From Siphonodentalium dalli (Eukaryota > Mollusca > Scaphopoda > Gadilida > Siphonodentaliidae), in contig CP136069.1 of the NCBI GenBank assembly GCA_032622095.1, forward strand, positions 4,138,976 through 4,202,975: a stretch of DNA of 64,000 nt, written 5' to 3'. A program made the translations under genes and the position numbers. Every line of letters begins with the position of its first letter. Within the stretch, counting starts at the first letter, position 1. A model generated the notes under the pieces. The model was not told where the DNA came from and did not search any database. It worked only from the letters and a program-made list of their open reading frames with translations. This document shows, in pieces, positions 6,566-62,639 of the stretch.

Positions 6566-6578
6566 ATCTGTGGTTTCA

Positions 6579-6816
6579 TATGAATACGCATTCTCTTGGT
6601 ACGAATAACACGAGTATGCATTTTTGCTCAATTACGTTGCGGATGAAGAACCACTTAAGGTCCACTATGAGTCAAGACTGTTTGAATCACTTGATGGTGT
6701 GTTACATATATACCGGTAGAGAACGACTTGACAATATCGACATAAAAGTGGTTTCAAATGAATTTGTTCATGGGAATGATGCTCGTCTGGATATGTTTGG
6801 ATTGTTTGACATTTAA
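6579..6816 (+). pseudogene. hAT transposase C-terminal fragment
   Basis: The frame ending at 6816 contains LRMKNHLRSTMSQDCLNHLM and later VVSNEFVHGNDARLDMFG. The IKxxLRSxMxxxRLxxL-like segment resembles the hAT C-terminal dimerisation region. Its position 244 bp from the 3' end of the element fits. The catalytic DDE portion is absent, so this is a relic. Identification is from motif resemblance only. Confidence 0.55.
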
Positions 6817-7128
6817 TGGACAACTATTGTGCATTCATACTTTAATATATGAACAAGAGAGAGAAATTGTTTTCTTAGCAATTAAAATCAATATGAAATT
6901 AATTTGTTTGTTGAAGTCTTAAGTACATGTACAGTTGTAGTCAGAATAAGTGTTAATTTAAGCGATGGAATAATGTTAATTATTTTTATGGTTTTAGTCC
7001 GAAATATGCTCTCCCCTTGATACCCCCCCCCCCCAATATTTAAAGCTTCCTACGCCCCTGGTACATACCATACATGTATATACACATGTAGTTATATACT
7101 ACTGAAAATCAAGGCGACTCAAGGATTA

Positions 7129-7431: not shown

Positions 7432-8330
7432 AAGCCTCCAAATAGAGTGTCTGACATTTGTAGAGCAGTGGGCTAGCATCACTAAAACTCATTCTACTCA
7501 GACCTCATCTTCTCTGGAAAGTATCTTTATTATCAATTGTCAAGTTTTTTTTATAGTTTCTTTAGAAAGTTTCTTTTTTCGTTTAGTTTCTCTATATCCA
7601 CAAATTTGCAGACGACACAATGCATACCGGTAATCAAGGTGCACAATGGGTGCATATCACCATCTGGGAACTTAAATACATGTATGTGTCTAGGTCTCCC
7701 ATAGCAGATGAGGTCATAAAGTCCCAAAAGGATGAAAGATTCAAATGAATGTGAAATGGACTCTAGTGAAGTAACTGCAAGGAAAACACGACAAGCGTGG
7801 GATTAAAAATGTGGAAACAATCGGCACTGAGTTAATATGGACCTATCAGTACAGTAATGCCCTAAATAAATGACTCCTTAACCACAGCAGAATTATGGGT
7901 AATTTTTCAGGATTTAGTCGGAAATATGGCTTATTTCCATTCACCAAATTCACCCTCTGGGGACCTCATTCAGTTTAGGCCTAATCCTCTGGGAAGTATC
8001 TATAGACTCAAATTAACATTGTTTTAGTTACGTTTCCCCTTCTGTCACTTTCTTTATCCCATAATTTGCAGAAGATAAAATGCATAATCGAGGCTCCCAA
8101 TGGGTGAACATCACCAACTTCAACTGGGGAAATTCAATCTGATCCAAGGTCTCCCTTAGCAGTTGAGACCTAAGCAGAATGAGCCTCAAAGAGGTCCCCC
8201 AGAGGGTGAATTTGGTGATGCTAGCCCACCATGCTGGATAGCATCACTAAATTCACTCTTTGGGGACCTCATTCTGCAAATGTCAGACACACTATATCCA
8301 GACTTGGTCGCAGGGTATAATGAGAACATG
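7432..8330. repeat. AAGCCT palindromic repeat family, partial copies, with a half MITE
   Basis: Contains GTGTCTGACATTTG, GTGGGCTAGCATCACTAAA and CACCCTCTGGGGACCTCATT and their inverse, shared with 26342-26993 and 35056-35460. A half CAGTAATGCCC MITE occupies 7852-7944. Confidence 0.7.
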
Positions 8331-8567: not shown

Positions 8568-9285
8568 TATATTCAGGCTTGTATATAATCACAGATGCCA
8601 AAAATACTAGTACATGTATGTTATGAACTTAGGGAATTGACATAAAATATCATCAGGAAGTTGTGATCACAAGATAAATCCTCACGTCAAATTTGTGTGG
8701 AAACCATCACAAATAACATAAATAATATGCTTTCGATCATTTATTGTGCTCTAGTTGTCGATTACAAGACATTTTGGACAACAAATGTTTAACTTTTCCA
8801 GCAATGTGGATCGAGATAACTTTGAAGTACATGTACCTGCCTGGAATACACTGTAGCTTGCTAAAAATATATTTCTGTATTTCCCCAGGAGCAGTGAGTG
8901 TGCTAAAATTAGAAAGCGGACTATCGTGTTGAGGAAATACTAGTATCTAATATCGGAAATAGTGAATGTAAAGCAACAATCACAAGTGTGCATTAGGCTT
9001 AGATACAGTAGTGATAAAATATTTAATAATATAATCAGAACATAACAAGGCAGAATCAAACATGTGGCTTTTAGCAATGTCCACTTAAATAAATAAAGAA
9101 ATAATTGTTGGGTACATACATGTATGTACATACACATGTACATGTATATCCTTGAAGAGAATTATTTTTCCCTATAAAGATGGTTCGCTAGTGGCCAATT
9201 TTTGTTGATAAGTAAAAAATACCTTTGATATTTGTGGTTCTGGCTTCCCTACCTACCCTGCATGTAATGTACCTACCCTACATGT
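8568..9285. other. No gene seen
   Basis: AT-rich intron sequence. Clustered TACATGTA motifs occur at about 8612, 8828, 9117-9150 and 9280. Confidence 0.5.
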
Positions 9286-9955: not shown

Positions 9956-10782
9956 TGATGCGAAGTTGAGTCACATGGTGCCTGGCCCAAGATTTACCGA
10001 ATGAAAAGTTAATTAAACACTGTTTTCTCTTAAGAATTTTAATGCAAACATATTGATAAATCGTTAAGCAAATATCACGTAAAAGATACTACCGGTAGTA
10101 CCAAAACTGTTGTTAGTAGATGAGCAAAAGGTATTTTTGTGAAGCTAATTGTCAGGTTGGTCCAGTATTAAGTCAATTCCTTTTGCGATAATGCAATGCA
10201 TGTGTTGAAATATGGAAATATTAGGTCATTTGGCACCTGTGCCCAACCTGTAATCATCTCTTCTCATGAGGCGATCTGACTTATTTGCACCAGAGGTCTA
10301 CTAGTAGTTGTTAAATGCTTCGTGTGATCACCGAAGTTACGCTAATGGGGTGGTTGTTGTAATGTTTTATACATACTAGTAAATGCACACCCCAGTCTAG
10401 AGCTCAGTCAGCGCGAGATTGAAATGTTGCCGTAAATAATTGTGTCTGCTTCAATTCAGACTATTTTTCTTCTGCAGTTCTGATAAAGGCATTCTTTTAT
10501 CACAATGATGAAAATGCACTAAAATTTTTCATATTTAGGTCGCATATTAATCTTATTAGTAGTACGGTACCGGTATTAAACAGGGACCGAACTTAAGAAC
10601 TGCATGGTTGTTTGATAGATGAATGGAAGAAAATGAACTTACAAAAAATGTCAACATGTGTGCATTTATGTATAAAACTCTACGACAACGACCCTGTCAC
10701 GTGACACTGCGCGATACTGGTGTGCAATTACCAGTACATGTATGTACACAGAAGTGCATCTACCGGTACATTGTATGCGGCA
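9956..10782. other. No gene seen
   Basis: AT-rich sequence with TACCGGTA, TACTAGTA and TACATGTA octamers and no exon-like signal. Confidence 0.5.
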
Positions 10783-11360
10783 CCTCGAAACAGTGCGCGG
10801 AACTGCGCAGAACTACGCGGAAGTGCGCGGTACAAATGAAACAGTTATTATGCACAGAGGCAGGTGGGGGTTGATTTAATACATGAACTATAGTAGTAGA
10901 CAGTCTTCAGTTGCGAATTTGTAAGGTTATTTTAACGTTTTAACTTGTATTTGAGAGATAGAGTGAGTGGTAGAATCTACCGCGCACTGTTTCGAGAAAA
11001 GCTTACTGCGCAATATCTTCCGCGCATTGTTTCACGAAAAGCATACTCGTGGTTTCGGATTAGGGACCACACTTAGCCTACATGTCTTAATTAGTAATAG
11101 GCCTAGTATAGCGGTAGACTGATTAGAGGTGACAGCTTACTGCATGTCACTGTAGAAAATGTGTGAAGTTAAAATGTTGAAACAACACAACCATCATGCA
11201 GTGATTATTGAGTGATTAAATCTGCAGGGTATAGCCTTAGTATGAAGTCGACTCTGACAATTTCATACCCAAATGACCGTATACATCAAGTGTTCATATA
11301 TAGCCTAGAAAAATTGTGTTCCAAATGCAGAATCAAATTAAATCGACTGAAAACGCAACT

Positions 11361-11750
11361 AAAGGTACTCAATCCGATCAGAGTGTCCCCATCTCAACAG
11401 ATTCCAACAACAATTTTTTTTTATCAAAGGTCACTTTAGTTATTAGAATCGATTAATTATCCAAAAATATTGCTAACGACTGTGAAATGTCGTATATAAT
11501 TGCCCAAAATGTGTTGTATGGCAACATTTTGTTCGATGGAATTTAGTATTGAGAGTATGTCGGTCGACTTTTTCGGCAAACTTCTGGGACAGCACGTATT
11601 CCCGATAATGAAAAATAATAGATTTCTAAAATCGATATATAATAAATCTGAGCTTTGATGGGTGGCTTCCTCGACTCGAATCAAATATTTTTGGCCCCTG
11701 AAGCCATTGAAATAGTAATTGAGAGGAGTTTTATCGGATTGAGTACCTTT
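11361..11750. mobile_element. AAAGGTACTCAATCCGAT MITE
   Basis: Begins AAAGGTACTCAATCCGAT and ends ATCGGATTGAGTACCTTT. The right flank forms TTAA and the left flank reads CTAA, as if one target copy had mutated. Relatives occur inside the tandem unit at 30785-31215 and at 43613 onward. Confidence 0.75.
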
Positions 11751-14013: not shown

Positions 14014-16757
14014 CCAACAAATTAGACTTTCGGATTAATTGGAATTTTAATATTTGGACATTTATGGACCATTTAATCCTTCAGTCTAATACTAGGCGTG
14101 AAAAATAGGAACGCTGCGAAGCCACTTATTTTACATGGCAAGGGCATGCCCCTTTAACTTACACTGTTCACGTCCAATGACACAAATAAAACCATGAATA
14201 AAAAACACATACCTGTTGTTGGAATGTTTAGTATCATGACTGAACTAACTAGAATATTTTTTGTCACTATTAATCCATTAAAATTTGATCAGAATACACA
14301 CGTCAGAAATATCAACATCGTCTGCGTAAGGATTACGCGCGGTATTGAGATTACGCGCATGCGTAAAGGAACAGAAATCATGGAAAAAATTTAGGCCACA
14401 CCAAACTTATTTCGCAGTTTCATTGTTCCAGACCACGTAGGAGCAGGCTGATTTTTATAGACATTATTGGATCTATATCCTTATAATTTTTCGGAGTGAA
14501 TGATTTTTGTTCACATCTATATATTAAGTATATATGTAATAAACGCTAGATAAAAACGCTAACTGGCTGTCAAGCCACATACAGTACAAAAACGCAAGGA
14601 AAGCTATAGTGGATGGGTGTCAAGTAGGCCTTCGGTTTCAACAATTGGAAAGTTTGTGCCTAACATGTTGAATTTGTTTTGATATGCGAGTATTACTGTG
14701 GTCATATATATAATGTGAAATTTGTAGTGATAAATCGAGATATATATAAACACACACATTATATAGCATCGTCGTCGAAATTGCTAGAAGTTTCATAGCA
14801 GACGTCTAAATGCAATTTTGGGCGCAATTTGTTACCGGATGGGAATATATTCGCTGCCACGTGGTCTTGTATTTTATACATATAAAAACGAGCTTCGCTT
14901 TGATAATTGAGAATGACACAGCTACGAAAATGCATATATGTATACGAGTTCAATTATTCTATATAATTTGTAGCCGCCAGTGCCCGCCACAGGTACGATT
15001 TTAGTCGAGCGACTGAATATGATTGGCTACCTCCAATAAATAGTACGACTCGATCGTAGAAAATCAAAATTATTCGATTCTTTGCGAGGCCGATCGTGCG
15101 TCAAAATGTCCTGCGATTTTCCACCGCACAAGCTACGATTTTACCTATATATATAGCCTACAATATAGGCTTAACCGGTGCCCGATATTTGTCGTACAAT
15201 ATATATCGCATCGTACGCGTGTGCGGCGCGCTAAGGCATGTTTAGGTTTTCCGTATCAATAATAATATTATATGTAGGCGGGTCTATTGCCAATTGTGTA
15301 ATTTCCAATTTAACACAGTCAGGCAACTATTTTCGGTACGGTAGCGTATGTACAGGTACATACTTCAATTTATCTCCAAGTTTTACAATATACGTTTAAA
15401 CACGTACACATATTCGCCGTATTAATGACCATATATTATTTTAAACATATAATAGGATGACCATACTTACCATTACTACTGTAGAAAACATTAACACAAC
15501 TGTTTATTTGAACGTTGATTTACCGTTATCTCATTTTACTGGAAAAAGCGGTAATAATCGGTAACCATCGTAACGGCAGGTTTTTTTTCTCGATGTCGAT
15601 TATAAACAGGCAAACGAAAATATAGTCGAAGTGCCGTTTCAGTTAATCTGTTTATCACTAGAAATGTGTTGGTTTTATGCCAAAATATCGAACATAGACC
15701 TATATAATCCGGCTTTTGGTGACAATTTGGTCATAGTTTTTGACTTGTGAACATTTCATGGGGCAGGTGGTCGTTGAATTCATCGATTACAACTGATTTA
15801 CTTACACGAAAATCCACAGGAATACGAATATAATCCACATAAGTGACTAATAATAATAACTATTACCCACGAATATCATACTCTCGTCGAATCTTGACAT
15901 ACCGGAAAGCTTGAAAGACCAAGCATCCGGTTAACCGGTTAATCAATTTGAATTTCAAAACTAATAAAATAATTTCCATATCCCTTCAAATATTGTTTAC
16001 TTAAGAAAAGGCATCTTTATTTTTGGTACAAAAATATCAATGGTATAATTTTTATAAGAACACTTCTATGATGAAAATGTCAACAAAACCGGACGAACAG
16101 ACCCTTATTATTGTTATTTATCAGACAAACAACATTTGGCGCTAATGTGTTATCTATAAATGCCAACAAATTGACCCAGTTGATATTTCCATATCTGCAC
16201 GGCATATATTGATTTTCACGAGTAATTAATTTGTGTGGCCTTTATTTTAGAAGCGTGACGTCATCATTATCGTCTGTATTTGAAAATAGTGATATGTTTT
16301 CGACTCCGAGATTAAACTAACAAATCTGTAATTCTGACAACGTTTATATCACAATCTATGTTTGAACATAAAGAATACTATCTCCGCTACAGGTAAGACT
16401 CATGTATTTGTAGAAAATTTCAGATAGAATGGTATTTTGAAGGGGTTATATCGGTGGTCACTGGTGTTGACCTGCTTAAAAAATTTTGCAATCTTGGTTT
16501 TCAGCTGTTTTATTAGACTATAAGGAGTAATACAATCGTAAATGTCCAAATATTAAAATATGTATTAATCCGAATAGTCTAATTTGTTGGACTACCTTTC
16601 GAGGTACCCCATTGTATGTATAAAACATTATGAAAACGACTCCATTAGCTGAAGTTACCATGATGATTTTGGTTAGTCCTTGGGCTTGGATAGGAGACCA
16701 GTACATGTACTTTTAACTCACTTCCATTATATACAGCTAGAAAGAATATTAATTTAC
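14014..16757. other. No gene; presumed BPNT2 intron 1 near exon 1
   Basis: AT-rich sequence. A segment at 15460-15570 (CATACTTACCATTACT..., ACAACTGTTTATTTGAACGT, TTTACTGGAAAAA) resembles 45375-45470, so both belong to an unnamed dispersed repeat. No BPNT2 exon 2 was recognised on the minus strand. Confidence 0.5.
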
Positions 16758-17099
16758 CGTCAAACCAGGAAACGCTTTTGAGAAACCATAAAGAATTAAT
16801 CGGTGAGATTCCATGTCAGCTTTAGTATAAACTTCATCAACTCCTTCTGCCGTCTTCCCTTTCAGAACAGCCCCCAGATTAATATTGTCTTTTGCTGGTG
16901 CACTTTCTCTGATTTCACGAACCCTTTCCCCACCGCGTCTTGCCAACTCAACACTGACTGATAACAATTCTTTCATGCTGATTCTTTCCTCCTTTTTGAA
17001 CCAATTCTTCAAACCGAACGCGTAAAACACTACGATGAGTGCTAGAGCTACGCATAACGTCAGCCCGAGAGGATTTAGTCTTATATTTGCAGGAGCCAT
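16758..17099 (-). CDS. BPNT2: BPNT2/IMPAD1 first coding exon (Golgi-resident PAP phosphatase)
   Basis: On the minus strand, MAPANIRLNPLGLTL begins at 17099 and the frame runs to FPGLT at 16758, followed by donor GTAAAT; 114 codons, phase 0. It resembles the start of human BPNT2 (MAPMGIRLSPLG...): a short N-terminus, a hydrophobic signal-anchor at about residues 8-30 (LGLTLCVALALIVVFYAF), then a KELLSVSVELARRGGERVRE helix and the GKTAEGVDEVYTKADMESHR segment that opens the inositol-monophosphatase-like fold. Known role: hydrolysis of 3'-phosphoadenosine 5'-phosphate to AMP in the Golgi lumen, a by-product of sulfotransferase reactions. The catalytic metal-binding DPLDAT and WD motifs lie in later exons, which I did not find in 1-16757. 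In-frame upstream ATGs exist (to 17126), but MAP matches the family start. Transcription is divergent from UBE2W. Confidence 0.9.
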
Positions 17100-17331
17100 C
17101 ATCTCTGTCATAACTTCATCTTTCAAAACAAACCGACACGTGGATTATGATAATCCGCATTTTCGAAGCATTTAAAAAAGTTGTATTCTGATTAATGTTA
17201 CTTATTTATATCATGTTTTATAATAGATTTACTTTCAAAATAACTCTTTTACAATTAATTTATTATTTGGAACCAAATGAATAACAAAAATATATATTTC
17301 GAAAATAAATGTCAATATTAGGCCATACAAA
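17100..17331. promoter_or_regulatory. Putative bidirectional promoter between BPNT2 and UBE2W
   Basis: Only 232 bp separate the two divergent start codons, so 5'UTRs and promoters must share this interval or lie upstream in an overlapping arrangement. The stretch is AT-rich, with no convincing TATA box at a fixed distance. The CAAAATGGCG at the UBE2W start resembles a YY1 motif. This call rests on gene geometry only. Confidence 0.6.
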
Positions 17332-17355: not shown

Positions 17356-20300
17356 GTAAATTTTTGGCAATCCGAGATATAAATGCTAAAATATGCTATA
17401 AATAGCGGTCTGATCGTGATCTTGGATTATTAGAATAAAAATAAATTATTTTTCTCTATGATTGGTTTTTAAATGGTTTGGTTGGCGATTATCACAATAC
17501 GATAAATTAGCCATTTTCGTGTGAAACTCAGGACAGGCAAGATACTTCAACTTTATTACTTCTAAATCTTACTCTGTCTCTAGTCTTAGTCTTAGATAAG
17601 TTAGATAGGTAAAAAAAATTGGTGACATCTGAGTACGAATATCGGAGTGTTCCTCTATCGTATTGCGATAATCGTCAACTTCCTATTTTCCTCCTCAACT
17701 CAGACGACCACATTTCAATCGTAAGTGGAAGGATTTCCGTTGCAGGAACTTGAGGAAGTAACCGGTAGTTTATAGACTGTGCATGCTCACGTCAATAAAT
17801 TGAATAATAACAAGTGATAAATGCGAAATTACAATGACTACTTTACAAATTACACCCAGTTATAAACTTTCAGTCAGCAGGCTTGTCATTCTGAGGCCCC
17901 CGCCCATCATCGGCCACCTAAACTTAAATTTGCACCTTCGTTATTCCCGCGGACGAGAATTTTTTTGTAATATCTGTCCAGTCAATCCACATGAACATGC
18001 GTCGCAGTGCTAATTGAAAGCATGTGGAATTGTCGCATACTTATTGAAAACAGACTATAGTTAGTTTTGCAGAGAATCCCATAGTGTATCGATTCATTAT
18101 TACGTCACCTAACTTATATAGAGCACTTTTATTTTGCGGGCTTCGGTGTCTGCGCGCGCTGCTTGTTAATTACAAATTAATAGTTTATATAGGTTACCAT
18201 ATTGGAGAATGTAATATATGCAGTACTATTAAGTGATGACACACAAACTTCTTTCTGATTAACTGTCTAGTAACTTTGAACCGCAAAATGCCCGCAAACT
18301 TTGTGAATAATGGTGACCATTTTACAGTATGAAATTTTAAAAAGGAACATACTGTTATGCCCTAAGTAAATGACCCATTAACTGCAGTTATAATCAGTTT
18401 ACAACTGGGGTTAAACCGTAACCGCAGTTATTTGCCGTAACTGCGGTGGCATCGTAGTTACATGCGGTTAGGTTACCGCAGTTAATAACCCTTAATTGCG
18501 GTTACACCGCACGTAAACGTTAACCTTCCGGTATTTGAATATTTAATGGGAAAGAGAGGGGTACTACCCATGCATCTACCAGTGTATGTTATCGTTTTGT
18601 GTTTTAGCGATCACGGCAAAGTGGTAACTTCATAATCGACCAGGAGTTGATTGTATGTTTTTGTTATCACCATCGGTACTCAACACGATATATTTTATGT
18701 TTAATCCCGACTTGTTGAAAACTGTATAATTTTGACGTATATGTTCTAGTATACGTCCGTTGTTCGGCTTGAGAAAAAATACATGCTTAATATGTTTGAA
18801 GCAAAGTAGAGTGCTGAATTTAATACTAGTAATAGTACATACGCAATTCACGAATCTAGCTGGCGTGTCACGTTTGTAGTTAATTATGATTATATAGCAA
18901 CGAATGCAAGATCGGAAAACTTAAATATCGGTTTCCGATATCCGAATAATGCCCGACGTTTGAAGAGTGCGGTTGTTCCGTTTAAACGCATTTTTGTTTC
19001 CCTCACTTTACATTTATGATGCATGTGTGGGACTCTAACCCCCCCACTTTATATTATTATATAATTATCCACTCGAATCCGTTTGAAATTCAGTGGCCAT
19101 TTGATCCGTTTGAATGCGTTTTTTCCGTTTTGCGGTTGTTCCATTTTAAACGCGTTTCCTTACATTGAAAGTGACCGGCACTCATCAGCTAAATTGTCGA
19201 ATAATTATATTTATATATAATTATATAAATATTTATTTTATCGATGGTTAACGTCGAAAATGGGACATAAGAATTCCGATTACCCGTTGGGGTTAGCCCA
19301 ACTGTTATTTTCACCAAAAGGCTACTATAAAGTATACAACATTATTACGGTATAAAAAGAAATCCAAAAATAAATAAAACACACAAAAACACTTTAATTT
19401 TTTCACACCATACATCACAATCTTCCGTTTACCCAAAACATAAAATATTGGTATATGAATGTCTGTTCTATTTATCCAAAATAAATAGAAGATCCACAAC
19501 AAAAAATATTGATATTGAAAGGGACACTGCCATGTTATTTGTGCTAACTTGTCTAACGAGCATGGCAACTAAAACATGACACGCCATATACGCCATATGG
19601 TATCTGTTCCATTAATAGCTACATATACCGGTTTAACCGCGACGTATCCGTTTTAACCGCACAATTTATTCGGTTCTCTTGCGTTTTAAACGCATCTTAT
19701 AACCGCGGTTAGGTTAAAACGGAACGCAGTTAAACTGGGGTGCCACTTCAGTTAGATGGGCCATTTACTTAGGGCATAACAGTAGATGCAGTCCAATGCA
19801 CGTCGTCCATTTTGGCTATGATCGCTAATTACCGATCCATAGAAACATAAATTCACAGTTGAACATAATTTATAAACAATGACAATGCCGTAACACGACA
19901 TCAAAGATAATTCTGCTGTGGTTATGGAGTCGATTACTTAGGGCATTACTGTATATACACTTTTTCTATCAAGTGTTCTCATGTCATATCTGGAATACAA
20001 TTTACGATTTACATATTATCTACCTCACACATGGAACAGGGCTTGATTTAGTCTTAGGCACACGGAAAAATAGGTATGTGGAGCTATAAATAACTCCATA
20101 TCTGCTTAGTATATTGTCCATAAAGATCAACACGGTATCACGAACAGTGACCACATGCATCGTGGTGTGACCGCGGCTTTGAATCAGTAACCTGACCACA
20201 GTGTTGGAGCTTTCCGTGGTATAATACCGCAGTATTACCAGAGTGAGACCACATTGGAGGTGGTCAATTAATTTAAGTATAGCTGTAGGCTATTAACATT

Positions 20301-23300
20301 TTTTCACCCTGACTACAATATCTTGGTTTAATATATCTTATTTTTACAGAAACGCCTACATAAAGAGCTCCAGGCCCTGTCAAAGGATCCACCTGTTGGC
20401 GTGAAAATCAATGAAGATAGCATAATGACCAACTTAACAGAGTGAGTATCTATATATATTACAGTGAAAATCAATGAAGATAGCATAATGACCAACTTAA
20501 CAGAGTGAGTATCTATATATATTACAGTGAAAATCAATGAAGATAGCATAATGACCAACTTAACAGAGTGAGTATCTATATATATTACAGTGAAAATCAA
20601 TGAAGATAGCATAATGACCAACTTAACAGAGTGAGTATCTATATATATTACAGTGAAAATCAATTAAGATAGCATAATGACCAACTTAACAGAGTGAGTA
20701 TCTATATATATTCAGCCCTCATAATTCAGATTTTTCAGCTTCGGCAATCCACTACGGCAACCATTGATGTGGGGCCCATTTGCTTCGGCAAATGGCTTCG
20801 GCATTGCTGATTGCCGTAGCCAATTATGAGGGCTGTATATTACAGTGAAAATCAATTAAGATAGCATAATGAGTATCTAGCCTCCCGGAGTAGGAACACT
20901 ATCCATTGGGACGACAATGATTCGGCCAGGTGTGAAATGTTTTTTCAACCTGAACATGAAAATTGTCATATAGCACCTGGACCGGTCTCAAGTTTTCCAA
21001 CCTGGCACCCGCTAAGATTAGAATATTGCAACTAATGACCATTTGAATCCAAAAATAATGACCAAAAGTAGTAAAATGTGCAAATTCTGGTTTATAAACA
21101 ACAAATTCCTCACTGATAAATTGTTGGAAAATCAAACTACGAGAAGAAATTAAACCTCTTGTTGGTGTGAAATTTCCAACTAATGTTGTGCCAGTTATGC
21201 AAATTCCAACTGTTGGAAAGTTTGACCTATTTAGTTGGAGGTGAGACACCACCCATTATCTCTGGTCACATTTCATGTAAATTTATCAAATGCGAAACTC
21301 GACTCTCTTTTTATTGGATATTGCACATTAGTTTTGACTTTCGCCATTTTGATTTCTTTTATAGTTACATACTAAGACTTTATATACAGTCAATGACAAT
21401 GACCCTGCATTCTATGCACACGGTCATGGCATGCATGCCTATTAGACAATGATTCAACAATTAAACTGATTCGGACAAATGATCACCCAAAATTGTGACA
21501 TACCGATACACTGGTGATGAGTTAACATACCGATACACTGGTGACATACCGATACACTGGTGACATACCGATACACTGGTGACATACCGATACACTGGTG
21601 ATGAGTTAACATACCGATACACTGGTGATGAGTTAACATACCGATACACTGGTGACATACCGATACACTGGTGATGAGTTACATACCGATACACTGGTGA
21701 CATACCGATACACTGGTGACATACCGATACACTGGTGACATACCGATACACTGGTGATGAGTTAACATACCGATACACTGGTGATGAGTTAACATACCGA
21801 TACACTGGTGACATACCGATACACTGGTGATAAGTTACATACCGATACACTGGTGACATACCGATACACTGGTGACATACCGATACACTGGTGACATACC
21901 GATACACTGGTGATGAGTTAACATACCGATACACTGGTGATGAGTTAACATACCGTTACACTGGTGATGAGTTAACATACCGATACACTGGTGATGAGTT
22001 AACATACCGATACACTGGTGACATACCGATACACTGGTAACATACCGATACACTGTGACATACTGATACACTGGTGATGAGTTAACATACCGATACACTG
22101 GTGATGAGTTAACATACCGATACACTGGTGATGAGTTACATACCGATACACTGGTGACATACTGATACACTGGTGACATACCGATACACTGGTGACATAC
22201 CGATACACTGGTGACATACCGATACACTGGTGACATACCGATACACTGGTGACATACCGATACACTGGTGACATACCGATACACTGGTGACATACCGATA
22301 CACTGGTGACATACCGATACACTGGTGACATACCGATACACTGGTGACATACCGATACACTGGTGACATACCGATACACTGGTGACATACCGATACACTG
22401 GTGACATACCGATACACTGGTGACATACCGATACACTGGTGACATACCGATACACTGGTGACATACCGATACACTGGTGACATACCGATACACTGGTGAC
22501 ATACCGATACACTGGTGACATACCGATACACTGGTGACATACCGATACACTGGTGACATACCGATACACTGGTGACATACCGATACACTGGTGACATACC
22601 GATACACTGGTGACATACTGATACACTGGTGACATACCGATACACTGGTGATGAGTTAACATACCGATACACCGGTGACTAGGGCCCTGCGAACCTTATA
22701 ATTTAGGTCGAACCGAACCTTGAAACCGAATCATCGTCTTGGTTTCGAATCGAACCGAATCTCGAACCTCGAACCCAATTACCGACCGTGTCATTGAAGA
22801 GAGTCCAAGCGACGTACTCATAATACTAGTAGCCAGTTAGAACGTATGTGGATCATTATAATAGTACAATCAACGTGTTATATACAAATTTATCGTATAC
22901 GATATAAGATAATTACATGTTGAAGAATTATTTTATATTGGAGATGAATGACAATCCGATAAAACGTTGATTTTATGTTCCGTTTATGTCCATACATTAT
23001 ATTACATAACCCCGATTAAAACATATCTCATGAAAAATCATAACTTATGACTTATTCTAACAGTAAGTGAGACAGATGTCTGATTGAATCATCGGTCAAG
23101 CTTCCAGTAGTAAATATGTACAATGTAAACAACGCGATAAACGACGCATTGAACTCCTAACACACTGACAGCATGAACGAGCCACGTGGTATCACTCGGT
23201 AACTATTAACAGACTCGTCAATCTGTAACTGCGACAACACATGACAAAGATCAAAGCGTGCCGACGTCACGTTGTAGCAATTAAGTGTCACAAGACAAAG

Positions 23301-26300
23301 CACATCGGGTTACATAATCATGTCAATCATTTATGCTGATAAACAATGGCCACACCTTCTCCTCACTGTGATTGGTTGACTCCAATTGTTGACACAGAAG
23401 GCTGCCGGAAATACCTATTCACTTTCAGCCAGTTTACGGAATTCAAAAAAGCTTGTTCGATCTGTATTCATCAATAATCATAACTTATTGTCTCGTTTGT
23501 TAGGTATAATTATGTCTATTAGTAAAGTTATATGGAGAATAAAACAAACTTTGACGAGGTAGAACTTTGACTGAGATAGAAATGTTATAGTTTTACTAAT
23601 TAATTATCACGAATTTGACATGTCCGACTGGACCGTTTAGCGGGAGCGGAATAAAGTTATGCCAAAAGACCCGTTCAATGAAATATCACCCAGTTACCCC
23701 GCCCGAGTAATGATCAAAGTAATTATGTCCAATGTAAACATAAAATCATAGTATCACACAGTTGTATGTAAACCAATTAATATACGGTATATAATCAATA
23801 AACAATTTCCAGTACGCAAAATTTGCCCATTTTGCGGGACTAAAGAAAAGGTTCGATATAAACGAATCCCGTCTAAGGTTTCGAACCGGACCGAATCATC
23901 ACAGCGGTTTCGAACCGAACCGAACCTCGAACGGTTCGCAGGGCCCTACTGGTGACATACCGATACACTGGTGATGAGTTAACATACCGATACACTGGTG
24001 ACATACCGATACACTGGTGATGAGTTAACATACCGATACACTGGTGACATACCGATACACTGGTGACATACCGATACACTGGTGACATACCGATACACTG
24101 GTGACATACCGATACACTGGTGACATACCGATACACTGGTGACATACCGATACACTGGTGACATACCGATACACTGGTGACATACCGATACACTGGTGAC
24201 ATACCGATACACTGGTGACATACTGATACACTGGTGACATACCGATACACTGGTGATGAGTTAACATACCGATACACTGTGACATACCGATACACTGGTG
24301 ACATACCGATACACTGGTGATGAGTTTTGACATGAGAATGACAGCCACTGGATACACATTGTGTATAATATAGAAACTTCACACATCTCGCTGCATGTGT
24401 TTGCACGCTAACTGTAATGATCATCAATACTTATTATGGTCAGGGGTTGATTTAATGTTTTAAATTTGTATAGCATTTTACAGCACTGGATAGATTTTGT
24501 ATAGCATTCCCTACCAATACAAGTTTTGTCATTGTAAATTGGTTTAATAGCAGAAATGGAAATCGCATCACAAATGGCGATGTAAATCAAGTTAAATCAA
24601 GCCCTGCTTATGGACATTGGTGGTAAAAACATGAGAATTTTTTTTTTTAGAAATATATCTAACTGCCTGTCCACTCTGTAAACTGCCCGCCCAAATGACG
24701 GGTGGACCGGTCGCTGGCTAAGTCTATGGGTAAACCCCTATTTCTATCTGAGATAAAGTGAAATGGCCGATCTGTTCTAAAAATAGCCCATATAAATGTC
24801 CCGATTACTGTACATGTATTTGTATACCAGAAAATCTGTAATGGAATCAATATTAATAAAGAGTTTCCGGACAGGTCAGGGATCTTTGATTCATATTTAT
24901 TATTTCATATCCAAGGAAACTATACAAAACTTATTAAAGGAAGAGATACACCATGTTTATTATTTCATACCCCAGGAACCTATACAAAACTTGTTAACGG
25001 AAGAGATACACCATATTTAAGAAGTCAGGTCTCTATGTTAATTTAAAGATTAATTAGCCGCTTTAATATGCCAGGTTTTAATAAAGGGGACCTGTTACAT
25101 GTATGTTATTGGTCGTACCATCCGTTTTTCCATTGGCCTGTCCATCAGTTTGACTTTTTTCGTTTCCAGATGATAACTTTAGTCTGATCTGAATGTGGAA
25201 TGAAATTTGGTATGTGAATTCACTACAATTTCAAATTTGGGTTCCGACTGCCAATTTTCACCAGAGTTATTGCCCTCTGTTGGAATTAACACAGGCATAT
25301 TTTGCCATGCCTATCGATGCTCATTATCTTACTATCAGCCATCATGTCGGCTAGCAGCTAAAACAACATTAACTAATTAACTAATTACCGTAACCCCAAC
25401 TAATTAAACAAATTGATCTTCTGTTAATCTAATCTACATGTATTTTTATTGTGTTTTAGCCATGCATGCGTTCGTGTCTATTGACATCAACAATTTCCTT
25501 TATTACACCCTACAGACCACATCACTTATCCGATTGTCACTAAACTTCTTATAGATCTACGGGATGACCTCTAGATGGGAGCCATCAGTTTCTTTCGAAA
25601 ATCGTTAAAAAACAAGGTTGCCAGCAGCAATCTATTGGCACACCCTTCAGCCCGCATTTATTGGAGAATTGTTTACAGGCTTGTGTAAGATCACCTCTAG
25701 ATGGTAGCTATTAAATTTGAACAATTTATTTTCAATGAAAAACATAGCCACTGACAGCCATCTTGGATATTACTCTTTGCATGGCTAAATCATTTGGCAC
25801 ATCCCTCATCCGATATTCTCCAAACTTCATATTGATCTTCGGGTGACCACCAAATGGGAGCCGTAAAAAAAATTCAAAATTTCATCAAAAAACATCTTGG
25901 ATTTTACTACAGTAATGCCCTAAATAATCAACTCCTTAACCACAGCAGGATTATGGGTAATTTTTCAGGATTTAGTCAGACATATGGCTTGTTGCTACCT
26001 CAGTGAGAGCTTTCCGATGAATGGCAACAAGCCATATTTCCGACTAAATCCTGAAAAATTACCCATAATTCTGCTGTGGTTAATTATAAGGAGACGATTA
26101 ATTAGGGCTTCACTGTACTTGTATGACAAAATCATTCAGCATGTTCTGCAGCCAACAATTTTCATCAGATTGATCCCAAACTTCATATGGCTCTCCGAGT
26201 TGACCTCTAATAGGACTTAAACATTTACAATTTCCACATTCCTTAGCACTCCATTGACTGTAATATATGACATTATCCCCTCTCCAGTTGAGCTACAGTG

Positions 26301-29300
26301 TCTGTGACTTTTTGGCACATTGGATTTGGATACTTTACTCCCCAAGCCTTCAAATAATGTGTCTGTCATATGTAGAATGAGGTTCCCAGAGGGTGAATTT
26401 AGTGATGCTACCCTGCAAACTGGGCTAGCGTCACGAAATTCACCCTCTGGGATACTCATTCTGCTTAGGGCTCAACTGCTATAGAAGACCTAGGATCAGA
26501 TTGAATATCCCCACTTGATCAGATTGAATTTCCCAAGTTGAATTTGGTGATGTTCACCTATTAGTCACCTCAATTATGCATTTTATCTTCTGCAAATTAG
26601 GGGATAAAGAAAGTGACAGCGGGTTATCATCACCAAATGTCACACTGTGGTGACCTCATTCTGCTTAGGCCTCATCTTCTGAGAAGTGTCTATAGTCTCA
26701 AATTAACATGGTTTTTAGTTACCTTTTACCTTCTGGGAAATATCTGTATGATTATCCCCTAATTTTCAAAGATAAAATGCATAATTGAGGTGACTAATAG
26801 GTGAACATCACCAAATTCAACTTGGGAAATTCAATCTGATCCAAGGTCTCCCTTAGCAGTTGAGGCCTAAGCAGAATGAGGTCCCCCAGATGGTGAATTT
26901 GGTGATGCTAGCCCACCATGCTGGATGGCATCACTAAATTCACCCTCTGGGGACCTCATTCTGGAAATGACAGGCACATTATTTCCAGGCTTGATTACTC
27001 CTGTGTAAAAAACTTGTCTTTATTTTATCTGCAGGTGGCTTGTCAATCTCAACCAGAGTGCACCAGTCATACTTCCTTTCTGACTCTGTTACCGGCTGGG
27101 TACTACTCTGTGTTAAAGTGTGTTTCTATATATAGCATGGGGATTTCCAGCAAAAATTGCGAAACCCGATCGCTCCAAAGTAAAATTTTCTATGTGCTTT
27201 GAGAACAATTCCCCGCACTAAAACATAATATAACAGAATGGAAAATCAGAGTGGTAGTTTTGTTGACGATTTTTGCAAGCTACTTGTCAAAATTGCAGCA
27301 AATTAGATCTCTTGTGTTTTGACTTGCCGTGCGAGTTGTGACAATGTCGTACAAGTGCGTTTTGACTTTTGTTTTGATAAAATAGAACCGAATCACACTG
27401 TTGCGAAATATAGTTCTTCGGTTTTAGTGGGACTTTTCAAACTTATATTTTTCAAAATTTATATTTGTTCGATATTTTGTGTGCTTAATAAGGGCAGCAT
27501 GTTGCTCTGTTTGCTTAGTATATATCTTAATATCGCGGAAGTCCACCAAATGTGGGTGAAATGTCGCCGGTAGCAGCGGTCTTACCAGGTCATCAAGGGA
27601 GGTAAACCCTGCATGGAGTTTGGTGGCTTGTTGCACTAGATGACGCTCCTAAAAAACTTTTTTTATTTTTGTTGAGCTCGATGGCGCTCCTATAAAACTT
27701 GTTTTTATTTTAGATATGGGTTATGCTTAAGTATGCTATAGCGAATTTAAAAACAAACTGGATAAAACCTTAGGGGCATGTCATAACTCAAAACTAATAC
27801 CAAGTATTCATAGTAATAATTTTGATGCCCATGAAAAACGTAAGATTCCCTGGCACTAAACCTACAAAATAAGTCTGTTAAAGAATATAAGAAAAATTAT
27901 TAAAATTGTAAAAAATTGTAAAAAATAATAACAAATGATGAAAAATTGTTAGGCCAATGCATTCTCTTATATATGCGAGTCGACCATAGGCACAGGGTAT
28001 ATGGGTTGATACAAAAATCGGACCTGGCACTGAAAGGGTTAAACATCTGCCGATCTTGATAGGCCTCTCGTTATTTTATCTGCAGGTGGCTTGTTGAGCT
28101 CGATGGCGCTCCAGGTTCTATTTACGAGGGAGAAAACTTTCAACTTCACTTCAAGTTTGGAACTAAATATCCATTCGAATCACCTCAGGTATGGTTTTAC
28201 AATTAGTCCCAAGTTCACATCTGACCCATTTTTAACCCTTGACTTCAAGGAATATATATGCAGACAACAGGCAGATGCTACACGTACTGAAGCCTGAGTT
28301 TAGTTGCCTGACATTTGCAGAATGAGGTCACCAGGGGGTGAATTTAGTGACAATTATCCTGCATAGTGGGCTAGCATCACCAAATTCACCCTCTGGGAAA
28401 CTCATTCTGATTTGGCCTCATCTGCTATGAGACATAGACTCAGATTGAAGTTCCCAAATGGTGAATATTGTTATGTACACCCATCGGAACCTCGATTAGG
28501 CAATGTGTCGTCTGCCAATTTGGGGATATAGAGAAACTAAACTAAAATGTGAAGAAGTTTCTATAGAAATTTGATAATAAAGAAACTTTCCAGAGAAGAT
28601 GAGGCCTAAGCAGAATGAGATCCCCAGAGGGTGAATTTGGTGATGCTAGCCCACTATGAGTATTTAGTAAAGAAATGGTTCATGCTGCTTATCTGTTGTA
28701 ATCAAGACTCAAAATCATTTTTTTAACTGACTGTCAAAATGACCAAATGGATGGTGTTGGTCATTTCAAAATGGTGCCTGTCAAATTTTCAGATGTGCTC
28801 AATTTCATGCAACTAATCGACTTGGTATTCTGGAGTCGACTTTTGGTGAACAATTCATCTCAATACTAATCAGCAAGCCTGAGTTTAGTGTGTCTAACCC
28901 TTAAAGAACCCCACATACCGGTAGACTAGAGCAGACGACACTCCACAGTGCATGCTTCTATCTGTGTGAGGCTCCCTATGGGTTAAACATTAAACATTTT
29001 CAGTGAGGTTTGAGATGGATGTCTAACATTACTGACTAAGCCTGAGTTAAGTGTGTATATCATTTGCAGAACGAGGTCCCCAGAGGGTGAATTTAGTGAC
29101 GCTATCCTGCTTTGGAAAATATTAACCCGTTTTCTCAATCCATGTCTTTTAACCTTTTCCATTATTAAATAACTATTATTTTGATATCTCACATGGAAAT
29201 TTGCAACAACATAAACAGAACTGCTCACACTATGATAGTGGCTCTATACAGTAATGCCCTAAATAATCAACTCCTTAACCACAGCCGAATTATGGGTAAT

Positions 29301-32300
29301 TTTTCAGGAACTAGTCGGAAATATGGCTTGTTGTCATTCATCAGAAAGCTCTCACTGACAGCTTTCTGATGAATGGCAACAAGCCATATTTCCGACTAAA
29401 TCCTGAAAAATTACCCATAATCCGGCTGTGGTTAAGGAGTCGGTTATTTAAGGCATTACTGTAGTTTAGATGTTATATTAACCCTTTCTCATTGACCCCA
29501 TAAATTCCAATAATTTATGTTTTATGTACATTTATCTATAGTACATTTAATCACTGGAGGATATGCTCCTCGAATTCTCATTCCGCCCAAGCAAAATTCC
29601 GATTCCGAGTGGTATAACTTCCGATTCCGCGAACGTTTTGCTCGATTTTCCACGACCATGTTTACTAATTGGTGTATATCGAGGGAGCAACTCATGGGAT
29701 GACACATTGAAATGTTAGGATTTGTTTCTACTCTTCACTTACTTATTCATTAGTCCCATATATAGCACGCTGTACTAAATTACAAGGGTTGCTCACTCAA
29801 ATCCACACACACAGAAGAAGAAAAGTATGGTGTACACATGTGAATTTCGAAGTGAAAAAGATAATGTTTTGTAGAACAAATTGCTTATGTGTATCCGCAA
29901 ACAACCCATCGTTACTTTAAAAATAGAGTTGACCAAAATACGCGATTTTAGCCTGACATAATGTCTTCAAAGTAACACTACCAAACGTTCCCATTCTGTG
30001 TGCTAAATTATCATTTAGCTCATTCAGGGTATTTTTTTACCCTGTGCCAATGCATTCTCTTATATATGCGAGTCGACCATAGGTCGCCTCGCATATATAA
30101 GAGAATGCATTGGCTTAACACTTTTTTACAATTTTAATAATTTTTCTTGTATTCTTTAACAATTTTATAATTTCACCCATACAGAGCCCCAGACAAACAT
30201 GAGCAGACAACACTCTTCTATATGCTTCTATATATATGTGGGGCTCCCTGCAGGGTAATGGATGTTTTTTTATTTTATGTCCTAAAAATTGTAAGAAACA
30301 TTTATTTAAAAAACATGATAAAAAATTGTTAGGCCAATGCATTCTCTTATATATGCGAGGCGACCTATGGTCGACTCGCATATATAAGAGAATGCATTGG
30401 CACAGGGTAAATAAATATAATACGCGATTCTAGCCTGACATAATGCCTTCAAAGTAACACTACCATACGTTCCGATTCTGTTTTTGGAGTGTTCCTATTC
30501 ACGACACGCACATTTTCAGCGTTCCAATTCCTGACATGGAGAAATGTTTTCTGTAATCCAATTAATTGCTTCATTTTGCTGGCTCCACGGCGGTTCTACA
30601 TGACTGTAAATTGTCCTACAATGATTAATTAGTAACTTATACTACAACAGATCAATGGTGTTGATTTTGATGCGATGTTTTTTTTTATTTTCCTATAATA
30701 TCTTGAGGTACTTTATTAAAAAGACCAAACATACATGTACATGTATATTGGAAGTCAAATTGACATTTATAAATAAATGAGCTTAAAGGTACTCAATCCG
30801 ATTCGATGGTCCCCATATCATCATACATGTATCCCAACAACAACGTTTTTTAAATGCTGCTCCAGTTATCAGAATCGATCAATTGCCCAAAAATAAACCA
30901 GTCAACTATAGTACAAAATTGCCCAAAAACCTCTTATTTATCAACATTTTGTTCAACGAAATTTTGCCGGTTTGTCAATTATTTGACACAAAAGCCACTT
31001 GATTTTAGAGTTATCCATGTTGATCCGAGACCGCCTTCTCGTCGACCTTTTACTGGGCCACTAAAAATTATCAGTGATACAAAATAATAGATTTTAAAAA
31101 TCGATATTTGATCACTCTGAACTTAGATGGGTGTGTTCCTCGACTCGAATCAAATAATTTTGACCACTGAAGCCTAGGAAATAGTAATTCTACGAGTGTT
31201 AATTTCCGACTACGCACCTTTAACCGCAATAAGGAATCTCTAATTAGCCCAATAATGAAATATCTAATTGCGCTTATATTTTATATATCTTATTGATCTT
31301 AAGAACAAAAAGGAAGCTCCAATATCACTTTAAAAGCGCAATAATGAATATTATTATAGCAATTAAGTGCAATAAGAGCTAATTGGGCTTAAGTGTAAAT
31401 CAAAATCTTCCTTAATATGCTTAAGCACAATTAGCCGCATTACATAAACACTATAATTCAAATGGTGTAGTCCATAGTGCAATGGGTGGAGTTTATTTGT
31501 GACCTGGTGACTGTCCACGCGTAGGCCTATTCGGATTCTACTATTTGCACAGAGGGGTGATCTCATGATGGAGATATTACTTGCGCCTAAGCCCAATAAG
31601 AATGAGGAGCCAGAGATGTAATTGCGCTTAGGTACAATAAGAAATGTCTTATTTCACTTAAGCGCAATAAGGAGTCCCCAATTGCACTTAAGCACAATAA
31701 GGACAATTCTAATTGAGCTTAAGCACAATAAGAGAAGATCTTATTGCGCTCATAAGATCAATAAGGAATCTCTAATTTTGTTTATCCGCAATAAAGAATA
31801 TTCTTATTGCACTTACCATAAGTGCAATTCCGTCTACAGTTAATTTGGCAAAACAATAGCCTGACAGCAATAATTGTAAATTGAAATCACGAAACCGCAT
31901 ATAATAAAAAGGAAACCTAAACCGCATATAATAAAAAGGAAACCTAAACCGCATATAATAAAAAGGAAACCTAAACCGCATATAATAAAAAGGAAACCTA
32001 AACCGCATATAATAAAAAGGAAACCTAAACCGCATATAATAAAAAGGAAACCTAAACCGCATATAATAAAAAGGAAACCTAAACCGCATATAATAAAAAG
32101 GAAACTGTTTTTGGAGTGTTCCTATTCACGACACGCACATTTTCAGCGTTCCGATTCCTGACATGGAGAAATGTTTTCTGTAATCCAATTAATTGCTTCA
32201 TTTTGCTGGCTCCACGGCGGTTCTACATGACTGTAAATTGTCCTACAATGATTAATTAGTAACTTATACTACAACAGATCAATGGTGTTGATTTTGATGC

Positions 32301-35300
32301 GATGTTTTTTTTTATTTTCCTATAATATCTTGAGGTACTTTATTAAAAAGACCAAACATACATGTACATGTATATTGGAAGTCAAATTGACATTTATAAA
32401 TAAATGAGCTTAAAGGTACTCAATCCGATTCGATGGTCCCCATGTCATCATACATGTATTCCAACAACAACGTTTTTTAAATGCTGCTCCAGTTATCAGA
32501 ATCGATTAATTGGCCAAAAATAAACCAGTCAACTATAGTACAAAATTGCCCAAAAACCTCTTATTTATCAACATTTTGTTCAACGAAATTTTGCTGGTTT
32601 GTCAATTATTTGACACAAAAGCCACTTGATTTTAGAGTTATCCATGTTGATCCGAGACCGCCTTCTCGTCGACCTTTTACTGGGCCACTAAAAATTATCA
32701 GTGATACAAAATAATAGATTTTAAAAATTGATATTTGATCACTCTGAACTTTGATGGGTGGGTTCCTCGACTCGAATCAAATATTTTTGACCACTGAAGC
32801 CTAGGAAATAGTAATTCTACGAGTGTTAATTTCCGACTATGCACCTTTAACCGCAATAAGGAATCTCTAATTAGCCCAATAATGAAATATTTAATTGCGC
32901 TTATATTTTATATATCTTATTGATCTTAAGCACAAAAAGGAAGCTCCAATATCACTTTAAAAGCGCAATAATGAATATTATTATAGCAATTAAGTGCAAT
33001 AAGAGCTACATGTAATTGGGCTTAAGTGTAAATCAAAATCTTCCTTAATATGCTTAAGCACAATTAGCCGCATTACATAAACACTATAATTCAAATGGTG
33101 TAGTCCATAGTGCAATGGGTGGAGTTTATTTGTGACCTGGTGACTGTCCACGCGTAGGCCTATTCGGATTCTACTATTTGCACAGAGGGGTGATCTCATG
33201 ATGGAGATATTACTTGCGCCTAAGCCCAATAAGAATGAGGAGCCAGAGATGTAATTGCGCTTAGGTACAATAAGAAATGTCTTATTTCACTTAAGCACAA
33301 TAAGGAGTCCCCAATTGCACTTAAGCACAATAAGGACAATTCTAATTGAGCTTAAGCACAATAAGAGAAGATCTTATTGCGCTCATAAGATCAATAAGGA
33401 ATCTCTAATTTTGTTTATGCGCAATAAAGAATATTCTTATTGCACTTACCATAAGTGCAATTCCGTCTACAGTTAATTTGGCAAAACAATAGCCTGACAG
33501 CAATAATTGTAAATTGAAATCACGAAACCGCATATAATAAAAAGGAAACTGTTTTTGGAGTGTTCCTATTCACGACACGCACATTTTCAGCGTTCCGATT
33601 CCTGACATGGAGAAATGTTTTCTGTAATCCAATTAATTGCTTCATTTTGCTGGCTCCACAGCGGTTCTACATGACTGTAAATTGTCCTACAATGATTAAT
33701 TAGTAACTTATACTACAACAGATCAATGGTGTTGATTTTGATGCGATGTTTTTTTTTATTTTCCTATAATATCTTGAGGTACTTTATTAAAAAGACCAAA
33801 CATACATGTACATGTATATTGGAAGTCAAATTGACATTTATAAATAAATGAGCTTAAAGGTACTCAATCCGATTCGATGGTCCCCATGTCATCATACATG
33901 TATTCCAACAACAACGTTTTTTAAATGCTGCTCCAGTTATCAGAATCGATTAATTGGCCAAAAATAAACCAGTCAACTATAGTACAAAATTGCCCAAAAA
34001 CCTCTTATTTATCAACATTTTGTTCAACGAAATTTTGCTGGTTTGTCAATTATTTGACACAAAAGCCACTTGATTTTAGAGTTATCCATGTTGATCCGAG
34101 ACCGCCTTCTCGTCGACCTTTTACTGGGCCACTAAAAATTATCAGTGATACAAAATAATAGATTTTAAAAATTGATATTTGATCACTCTGAACTTTGATG
34201 GGTGGGTTCCTCGACTCGAATCAAATATTTTTGACCACTGAAGCCTAGGAAATAGTAATTCTACGAGTGTTAATTTCCGACTATGCACCTTTAACCGCAA
34301 TAAGGAATCTCTAATTAGCCCAATAATGAAATATTTAATTGCGCTTATATTTTATATATCTTATTGATCTTAAGCACAAAAAGGAAGCTCCAATATCACT
34401 TTAAAAGCGCAATAATGAATATTATTATAGCAATTAAGTGCAATAAGAGCTAATTGGGCTTACATGTAAGTGTAAATCAAAATCTTCCTTAATATGCTTA
34501 AGCACAATTAGCCACATTACATAAACACTATAATTCAAATGGTGTAGTCCATAGTGCAATGGGTGGAGTTTATTTGTAACCTGGTGACTGTCCACGCGTA
34601 GGCCTATTCGGATTCTACTATTTGCACAGAGGGGTGATCTCATGATGGAGATATTACTTGCGCCTAAGCGCAATAAGAATGAGGAGCCAGAGATGTAATT
34701 GCGCTTAGGTACAATAAGAAATGTCTTATTTCACTTAAGCGCAATAAGGAGTCCCCAATTGCACTTAAGCGCAATAAGGACAATTCTAATTGAGCTTAAG
34801 CACAATAAGAGAAGATCTTATTGCGCTCATAAGATCAATAAGGAATCTCTAAGTTCGTTTATCTGACAGCAATAATTGTAAATTGAAATCACGAAACCGC
34901 ATATAATAAAAAGGAAACCTAAACCGCATATAATAAAAAGGAAACCTAAACCGCATATAATAAAAAGGAAACCTAAACCGCATATAATAAAAAGGCAACC
35001 TAAACCGCATATAATAAAAAGGAAACCTAAACCGCATATAATAAAAAGGAAACCTGCAAATAGCGAATTTAGTGATGCTACCACGCATAGCGGGCTAGCA
35101 TCACTAAATTCACCCTCTGGGGACCTCATTCTGCTTAGGCCTCATCTTCTGGGAAGTATCTATGGTATCAAATTAACATTGTTTTTAGTTACGTTTTCCC
35201 ATCTGGGAGTTTCTATATCCCCTAATTTGCAGAAGATAAAATCCATAATCGAGGCGCCCAATGGGTGAACATCACCAACTTCAACTGGGGAACTTCAATT

Positions 35301-50780: not shown

Positions 50781-51175
50781 ACTAACCCTTTGGCGATGGG
50801 AAAAACCCATAGAGAGCCCTACATAAACATAAACTGTGGTGCATGCTTCCATCTGTGTGAGGCTCCCTGTGGGTTAAACATTAAACTTTATACATGTAGT
50901 AGTATATTGCCTCAGTTATGAATCCTTTCATAACTCGGCCTGCGCTGGTGCAGCATTAAAGATCCTGTGCCAGTGCATTTTCTTATATATGCGAGTCTCC
51001 CATGGGAGCAATTATAACAGAATGCACTGGCTTACATGATCACTGTAAAAATTGTTAGGCCAATGCTTTCTCTTATATATGCGAGGCGCCCTATGGGAGA
51101 CTGGCATATATAAGAGAATGCATTTCCACAGGGTTTTCGCAAAATTTCAGGAAACTACCGTCATGAAAGGGTTAA
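50781..51175. mobile_element. AGAGCCC-family unit and a CATGACGG-family TTAA element
   Basis: 50781-50880: CATAGAGAGCCCTACATAAA ... GTGTGAGGCTCCCTGTGGGT. 50917-51175: CCTTTCATAAC...GCTGGTGCAGCATTAAAGAT, two degenerate hairpins, and GTCATGAAAGGGTTAA. Confidence 0.7.
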
Positions 51176-51305: not shown

Positions 51306-52200
51306 CTGGGTATGCGCTAACATGTCATTAAATCATAACTAACAGATTTATATTGAATGTTTCCTTATAAAATTAGGAGATAAACATACCCTGTTTCGTT
51401 GTACATTCTGGGATTCGAGCATGAAAACAGTTTGTGAATGAGCCGGCTTGCCAGCGAGTTCACAAACTTTTTTCATGCTCGAATCCCAGAATGTACAACG
51501 AAACCGGGTACGTTTATCTCCATTGTAATTCAATCTAGCAAGGAATTTGCAAAAAAAACTGTATAAAAAGTACATGTATCATTTAGTCAATTTCATGACA
51601 CGAATCGAGACTTTCATTTTGCCGTTGTCACCGTGCACAAATCGTTGGGTTTGTTCATTGTGTTACTCGGAATACTACTCCGTAACATTCAGATTTGAAT
51701 GCACTAATTCAGATTTGATGCACGTTGAAGCGGCCGATGGACGGTATCTATAGACAACGCGAGGGTGTGCTTGTTTCTCTATCCGTTCTGCGCCAGTGAA
51801 ATTTTACCATGCTACATTCAGATTTGATGCACGCTGAAGCGGCCGATGTCGGTGAATCGAAAACTAAAGTTAGCCACTCTCGGCCAATCAGAATGCTTAT
51901 TTTTAGTGACAAATACTCAATTGAATTACAATGTTGTATACAACAGCACCATAAAATCAAAATATTTCTTATCAACTAACAGATATTGAATATGAAAGTT
52001 TATCTTTCAAAACAACTGTGATATAAAGTTTACATGAAATTGAAAACAACCTTCCGGATTCCACCTAAATCGCACAATAATTTTTAAATATATTTGACAC
52101 CAGAATTATCCAAAATTTGAAGAACTGCATATTATAGTTTAGAATGTTTTAGCTCATTTTGTCCTTGTTTATATAAGCAGGTATGTTAACATATCACATA
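51306..52200. other. Intergenic; one ~85-bp palindrome, nothing coding
   Basis: 51385-51512 is an inverted repeat (ACCCTGTTTCGTTGTACATT ... AATGTACAACGAAACCGGGT) with ATTCGAGCATGAAA arms. TTCAGATTTGATGCACG...TGAAGCGGCCGATG is repeated at 51709 and 51819. Confidence 0.55.
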
Positions 52201-62572: not shown

Positions 62573-62639
62573 AATGAATAAAAATTGTTGTGTTCACTTA
62601 TTGTATCTCATCTGCTTTTATTATATGATCATAGGTTTC

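Follow-up and report, generated by a model that had tools for sequence, protein, structure and literature searches.

A 64,000-nucleotide stretch of the genome of the scaphopod mollusc Siphonodentalium dalli (assembly GCA_032622095.1, contig CP136069.1, positions 4,138,976 to 4,202,975; hereafter the window, with all positions counted from its first letter) contains three near-identical tandem units that raise a simple question: how does a TA dinucleotide that is plain in one unit come to read TACATGTA in another, at one TA in the second unit and at a different TA in the third? The answer that we favor, with a probability of about 0.68, is that each 6-bp gain marks the excision of a Tc1/mariner-type cut-and-paste transposon, which inserts at TA, and that two bases of each element end are kept at the site. 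Excision scars had already been proposed in an earlier note based on the letters of this DNA alone, which attributed them to the resident miniature inverted-repeat transposable elements (MITEs) with CAGTAATGCCC ends. The analysis described here supports the scars themselves, through gains that are centred on TA, palindromic, polarised, composed of two bases for both ends and flanked by Tc1-like sequence, and leaves the attribution to the CAGTAATGCCC MITEs unproven.

Unit 1 (30478–31891, plus strand; parent A) has plain TA at both gain sites and reads GAGCTAATTGGGCTTAAGTG from 31376, exactly the sequence reported in the earlier note, with the start shifted by one base from 31377. Unit 2 (32105–33524, plus strand) and unit 3 (33549–34893, plus strand; parent B) each carry a private TACATGTA, at 33007–33014 and 34461–34468, respectively, where the other units have plain TA. 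Alignment of the units confirms both reported gains, each of exactly 6 bp, and unit 3 retains GAGCTAATTGGG beside its own. Unit 2 is a hybrid, with a left part identical in type to unit 3 and a right part identical in type to unit 1: unit 1 alone deviates at 13 aligned sites, all at or before position 31304 of unit 1, unit 3 alone deviates at 7 sites, 6 of them at or after position 31437, and a single base change is private to unit 2. Judged by these diagnostic sites (13 on the left, 6 of 7 on the right), unit 2 is a recombinant with the crossover between positions 31304 and 31437 of unit 1 and thus the apparent product of unequal crossing-over between two older units. Both gains (at the TAs 31380 and 31390 of unit 1) fall inside the 132-bp crossover interval between the flanking diagnostic sites, and the gain in unit 2 should be recent because this unit has only one private base change. 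With two events to go by, a transposon break is no more than a conceivable trigger of the exchange.

The two unit gains belong to a broader class of octamers, the palindromes TA-C-N-N'-G-TA, with the members TACATGTA, TACCGGTA and TACTAGTA. For each class octamer, another copy of the surrounding repeat was sought within the window and its reading was compared. A usable copy is available for 18 of 55 class sites, and a clean gap appears in a copy at 10 of these 18 (nine gaps of exactly 6 bp and one of 12 bp). Gaps are also seen at 5 of 139 non-palindromic TA-N4-TA sites with a copy, where two of the five adjoin class events and two others represent one single event, at none of 16 TA-N4-TA palindromes outside the class, and, in a regular grid of 4187 positions of which 1567 have a copy, at 35, class events included. 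The comparison of 10/18 with 5/139 gives a Fisher p = 5e-8, with the three unit copies of the site at 30824 counted apart; when the tandem copies are collapsed by hand, 8 distinct gains remain among 12 distinct sites. These gains, at 7625, 7677, 10374, 28916, 30824, 33007, 34461 and 50891, occupy five places in four repeat families, and for six of them, beyond the two unit gains, the evidence comes from copies in other parts of the window. In 6 of the 8, the site in the empty copy is exactly TA. Assembly of tandem regions is difficult, which would make an assembly or sequencing artefact a ready explanation for the units, but gains of the same form at 7.6 kb, 10.4 kb, 28.9 kb and 50.9 kb as well as in the units leave this explanation with hardly any credibility.

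The individual sites give the direction of the change. TACCGGTA at 7625–7632 is a 6-bp gain relative to five empty copies, and TACCGGTA at 28916–28923 relative to three empty copies of a 117-bp repeat; because five and three empty copies, respectively, face one filled copy, the change at these two sites is a gain. TACTAGTA at 10374–10381 is gained relative to an inverted copy (10694–10658), and TACATGTA at 30824–30831, which is common to the three units (also at 32451 and 33895), faces a 6-bp gap in a diverged copy at 11360–11465. The 12-bp gain at 50891–50904 occurs at one TA and yields TACATGTAGTAGTA, one base from the chain TACATGTACTAGTA; it is read as two putative scars in a chain, the second of which departs from CTAG by one base. 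The opposite polarity, with the octamer ancestral and CATGTA deleted in the copies between two TAs, has some mechanistic appeal given that TA...TA is a 2-bp direct repeat. Deletions, however, would require more events than gains to explain the three units and would have to have struck 5 of 5 copies at 7625 and 3 of 3 at 28916, and at the site gained in unit 3 the related unit-internal repeats have CTTAAG and no insert; we consider this polarity highly improbable. The same low standing applies to the birth or slippage of a hexanucleotide microsatellite, (TACATG)n, of which TACATGTACATGTA at 30732 and the repeat-like stretch at 9117–9146 are reminiscent: nearly all sites are single copies and not tandem runs, the empty copies at the proven gains hold no CATGTA to duplicate, and the CCGG and CTAG forms act in the same way as CATG.

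Enrichment of the class in the window is consistent with many more such events. TACATGTA occurs 38 times in the unmasked 64-kb window against 2.39 expected from shuffles, and after masking of the arrays and of units 2 and 3, 29 times against 1.67; the masked counts for TACCGGTA and TACTAGTA are 10 against 0.51 and 7 against 0.54, and for the whole class, 46 against 2.8. TACCGGTA and TACTAGTA thus behave like TACATGTA, being both enriched and gained at TA, and TACGCGTA has 0 occurrences in the masked window. Two of the 10 TACCGGTA (2255 and 3101) fall within a hAT-like element, in its subterminal repeats, and are unlikely to be scars; they are kept in the counts of 46 and 10 and removed from the flank test and the age estimate below. 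Neither the form with one base per end (TACGTA, 3 against 5.0 expected) nor the one-sided two-base forms (TACATA, 30 against 29.7; TATGTA, 21 against 30.0) are in excess in the window, and three bases per end with C first are found 2 times against 0.8. TACAGTA (14 against 4.1) and TACTGTA (15 against 4.5) are enriched, in part because resident MITEs start or finish with those letters. Strong enrichment of one palindrome could also reflect selection for a functional protein-binding site; we find this scarcely plausible, given that the demonstrable gains arose by 6-bp insertion rather than by base changes, that the gained sites lie in repeats and that three differing cores are involved. TAGGCCTA was considered as a fourth member of the class and dropped, because the copies at 7976 differ by base changes, without a gap. 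A separate motif, AATGCATT, is also strongly enriched (44 against 2.7) and by eye appears to be part of an abundant palindromic repeat family together with AAGAGAATGCATTGGC.

The class sites are unevenly spread: once hAT-borne sites and duplicates are set aside, the first 12 kb have 28 of them, and a further four 4-kb bins, of which one is satellite, have 0 at a roughly similar number of TAs. The pooled age estimate for the three motifs is 0.047 +- 0.028 substitutions per site, which overlaps the 2–9% divergence from the consensus of 9 of the 13 CAGTAATG MITE ends; the other 4 ends, at 14–38%, may be misaligned or truncated. Given this overlap, a young age of TACATGTA deduced from missing one-mismatch relatives (42 against 38.9) is not firm.

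Among gaps of other lengths between TAs, a 4-bp gap occurs at five sites, four of which are TATATA, and there are one 7-bp tandem duplication and one +5 gain, TACCATA; no TA-X-TA site with X of 1, 6, 7 or 8 has a gap in a copy, and no +5 gap of the Sleeping Beauty type at TACAGTA or TACTGTA is seen among the 115 TA-N3-TA sites with a copy. TACCATA is located at 31814–31820 in unit 1 and 33447–33453 in unit 2, a +5 gain at TA relative to internal repeat copies, and we take it to have the form expected of a three-base mariner footprint.

The sequences around the octamers resemble Tc1 targets. The Tc1 target consensus is given as CAYATATRTG (Korswagen 1996, as quoted in PMC9635669). Measured against the outer letters of this consensus, 37 isolated class sites have 130 flank matches where 101.8 are expected from TAs within 1.5 kb (p = 0.0004), and the same score for 39 sites against the 4458 TAs of the window yields p = 0.012. 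An A immediately outside the TA is avoided, being absent in 65 of 74 flanks against 49.6 expected (p = 0.0002). These flanks bear on the possibility that a repair process or a transposase side-reaction adds the palindromic hexamer directly at a TA break, with no element ever present. Such direct insertion would account for the 46 octamers in the masked window when there are only about a dozen resident TA-type elements (by a rough count of ends), and for two unit gains separated by 10 bp in near-identical units, none of the three retaining an element. The Tc1-like flanks and the three tetramers, all of which start with C as element ends would, nevertheless argue against it, and we know of no enzyme that adds palindromic hexamers directly at a TA break; direct insertion therefore seems unlikely to us.

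Under the excision scenario, an element would insert at TA and duplicate it, a later excision would cut two bases inside each element end, and the flanks would be joined with both two-base remnants retained. Elements starting with CA, CC and CT would leave TA-CA-TG-TA, TA-CC-GG-TA and TA-CT-AG-TA, respectively, and each scar would be a palindrome because the element ends are inverted repeats. The 5' cut of mariner is placed two or three bases inside the element (PMC2642840), Tc1/mariner footprints are stated to be 2–4 bp (PMC7913693), and a Stowaway footprint TACT...AGTA has been published (PMC1925063). The gains, their three tetramers and, where several copies exist, their polarity are read directly from the alignments; the transposon intermediate, the end joining of both overhangs and the source families are what we infer from them.

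As the earlier note had stated, CAGTAATGCCC MITEs start with CA and finish with TG, and they also sit in a TA duplication. The copy at 29247–29463 is a candidate source type for the CATG scars, and with its suitable ends the family is an unproven candidate only. Under the rule of two bases per end in that note, CCGG and CTAG scars cannot come from a CA...TG element. A TA-flanked element at 18350–19784, with the ends CTGTTATGCCC/GGGCATAACAG (CT/AG), is related to the CAGTAATGCCC MITEs and is a candidate source type for the CTAG scars. Two other candidates were rejected: the CCAGGGG element (5950–7063), as a CC...GG source, is hAT-like with the 8-bp duplication GTACATAC (by eye), and the inverted repeat at ~51387–51510 continues beyond the TA.

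Several observations weigh against the excision scenario. At 7677–7684, TACATGTA shows a clean 6-bp gap in only 2 of 4 alignable copies, with TC or TT instead of TA, and this site and 30824 are the 2 of 8 gains at which the empty copy is not exactly TA. The sites at 7071 and 24811 lack the 6-bp gap although a copy exists for each; those at 30732/30738, which recur in every unit, have no comparison other than sister units that also carry them; and four weak alignments (73–75%) of the 33007 site to unit-internal repeats lack the 6-bp gap. In a stricter catalogue of clean indels between copies (96 entries, in which the single 12-bp gain is TA to TACATGTAGTAGTA at 50891), only 3 of 8 clean 6-bp gains are of the class (28916, 33007 and 34461), and TAATTATA at 26081 is a 6-bp TA-TA gain outside it. 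The insertion sites of the CAGTAATG MITEs have no significant Tc1-like flank preference (16 ends, mean 1.63 against 1.44, p = 0.27). In the window, no element was found that has CC...GG ends and a TA duplication. The trio of filled, empty and scarred states was likewise not found there when the flanks of 19 candidate spans (the ends of several being approximate or guessed) and of 4 exact-end elements were joined and searched for, 64 kb being too small to exclude such a trio; the search with the 19 spans returned only the elements' own arms or their relatives and one weak match (E 0.2). Among 30 open frames of the window that were scanned with Pfam (28 of the 63 listed frames and two others), none reached the curated cut-off and no Tc1/mariner transposase was recognised. 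Because neither a CC/GG element with a TA duplication nor a transposase was recognised, the source families are not established.

It is possible, if doubtful, that the window records a transposition and repair system that keeps both two-base overhangs as a rule, such that symmetric octamer scars would be among the commonest palindromes of the genome, would seed further insertions and would sometimes coincide with unequal crossing-over in tandem repeats. A scar of such a system would recreate a preferred target, CATG beside TA, and would therefore attract further insertions and grow into chains. Candidate chains without a comparison copy are TACATGTACTAGTA at 3588–3601, its reverse complement TACTAGTACATGTA at 8605–8618 and TACATGTACCGGTA at 4483–4496, and at 4420–4437, in GGCATTACTG-TA-CATGTA, a class octamer and the right end of a CAGTAATG-type MITE have, by eye, one TA in common. 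Simple arithmetic from the counts gives ~1.5 chained sites expected; the first 12 kb have 3, an excess that is not significant. Searches of viral_contigs returned no locus for the scar chain and 18 loci for the repeats of the window; BLAST aligned none of the 18 with the window, which marks them as chance matches to the pattern.

The window also contains other features. Two hAT-like elements were delineated by eye, one at 2192–3130 (ends CAGGCTTGTCAA, 8-bp duplication TGTGAAAC, GTACCG-rich subterminal repeats) and one at 5953–7060 (ends CAGGGGCGTAGGAA, duplication GTACATAC) with a nested TTAA-type MITE at ~6164–6570. Two open frames give the window the appearance of animal DNA. For the first, a minus-strand frame at 16752–17144, the protein database contains nine relatives, and this frame presumably resembles exon 1 of BPNT2, a Golgi PAP phosphatase gene; one of the relatives, used as a query against a structure database, gave only an insignificant match (E 0.49). 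The second, at 20350–20712, presumably resembles an exon of UBE2W, and its 3' part, together with the following bases, recurs five times in a tandem array of 63-bp units (99% matches). A 19-bp satellite occupies 21525–22651 and 23948–24320, and the region 57786–64000 consists of a 23-bp satellite, whose main block has ~192 copies, and then of a 195-bp composite array up to the end of the window. An Rfam search of the window gave no match.

If the octamers are scars, past departures of transposons, which normally are invisible, could be counted from a single assembly through the TA-CNNG-TA sites, and excision rates, target preference and repair outcome would be obtainable without experiment. 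An enriched palindrome that could pass for a regulatory motif would be explained as well.

The closest known systems share the TA target and differ in the details of the footprint. Tc1 of Caenorhabditis elegans targets TA, as here, and its element ends read CAGT. The difference, which speaks against our interpretation, is that the usual somatic footprint of Tc1 is +4 (78%; Eide and Anderson 1988, cited in PMC13148408), compared with +6 here. Sleeping Beauty and ZB also leave TA-flanked remnants of the element ends; the Sleeping Beauty footprint, however, is TAC(A/T)GTA (PMC3432063), and no such CAG/CTG gain is seen here against a copy, and that of ZB consists of zero to three bases (PMC7913693). 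Also unfavorable is the record of 94 excisions in rice, which mostly left deletions or filler, with eight perfect (PMC4423477). Because of the Tc1, Sleeping Beauty and rice data, uniformly clean scars with two bases from each end would be unusual and would represent a variant. A literature search found no account of TACATGTA as a genome-wide scar among the matches listed, with subscription journals mostly outside its coverage. A close parallel is with the Stowaway MITE footprints in the beta-amylase intron of the Triticeae (PMC1925063). There, the footprints vary, with 2–4 bp on one side and 1–2 bp on the other, compared with the dense 2+2 footprints of the window; as here, however, the target is TA and short remnants of both ends persist, the footprint TACT...AGTA has the same letters as TACTAGTA, and a second insertion at an already scarred TA is on record.

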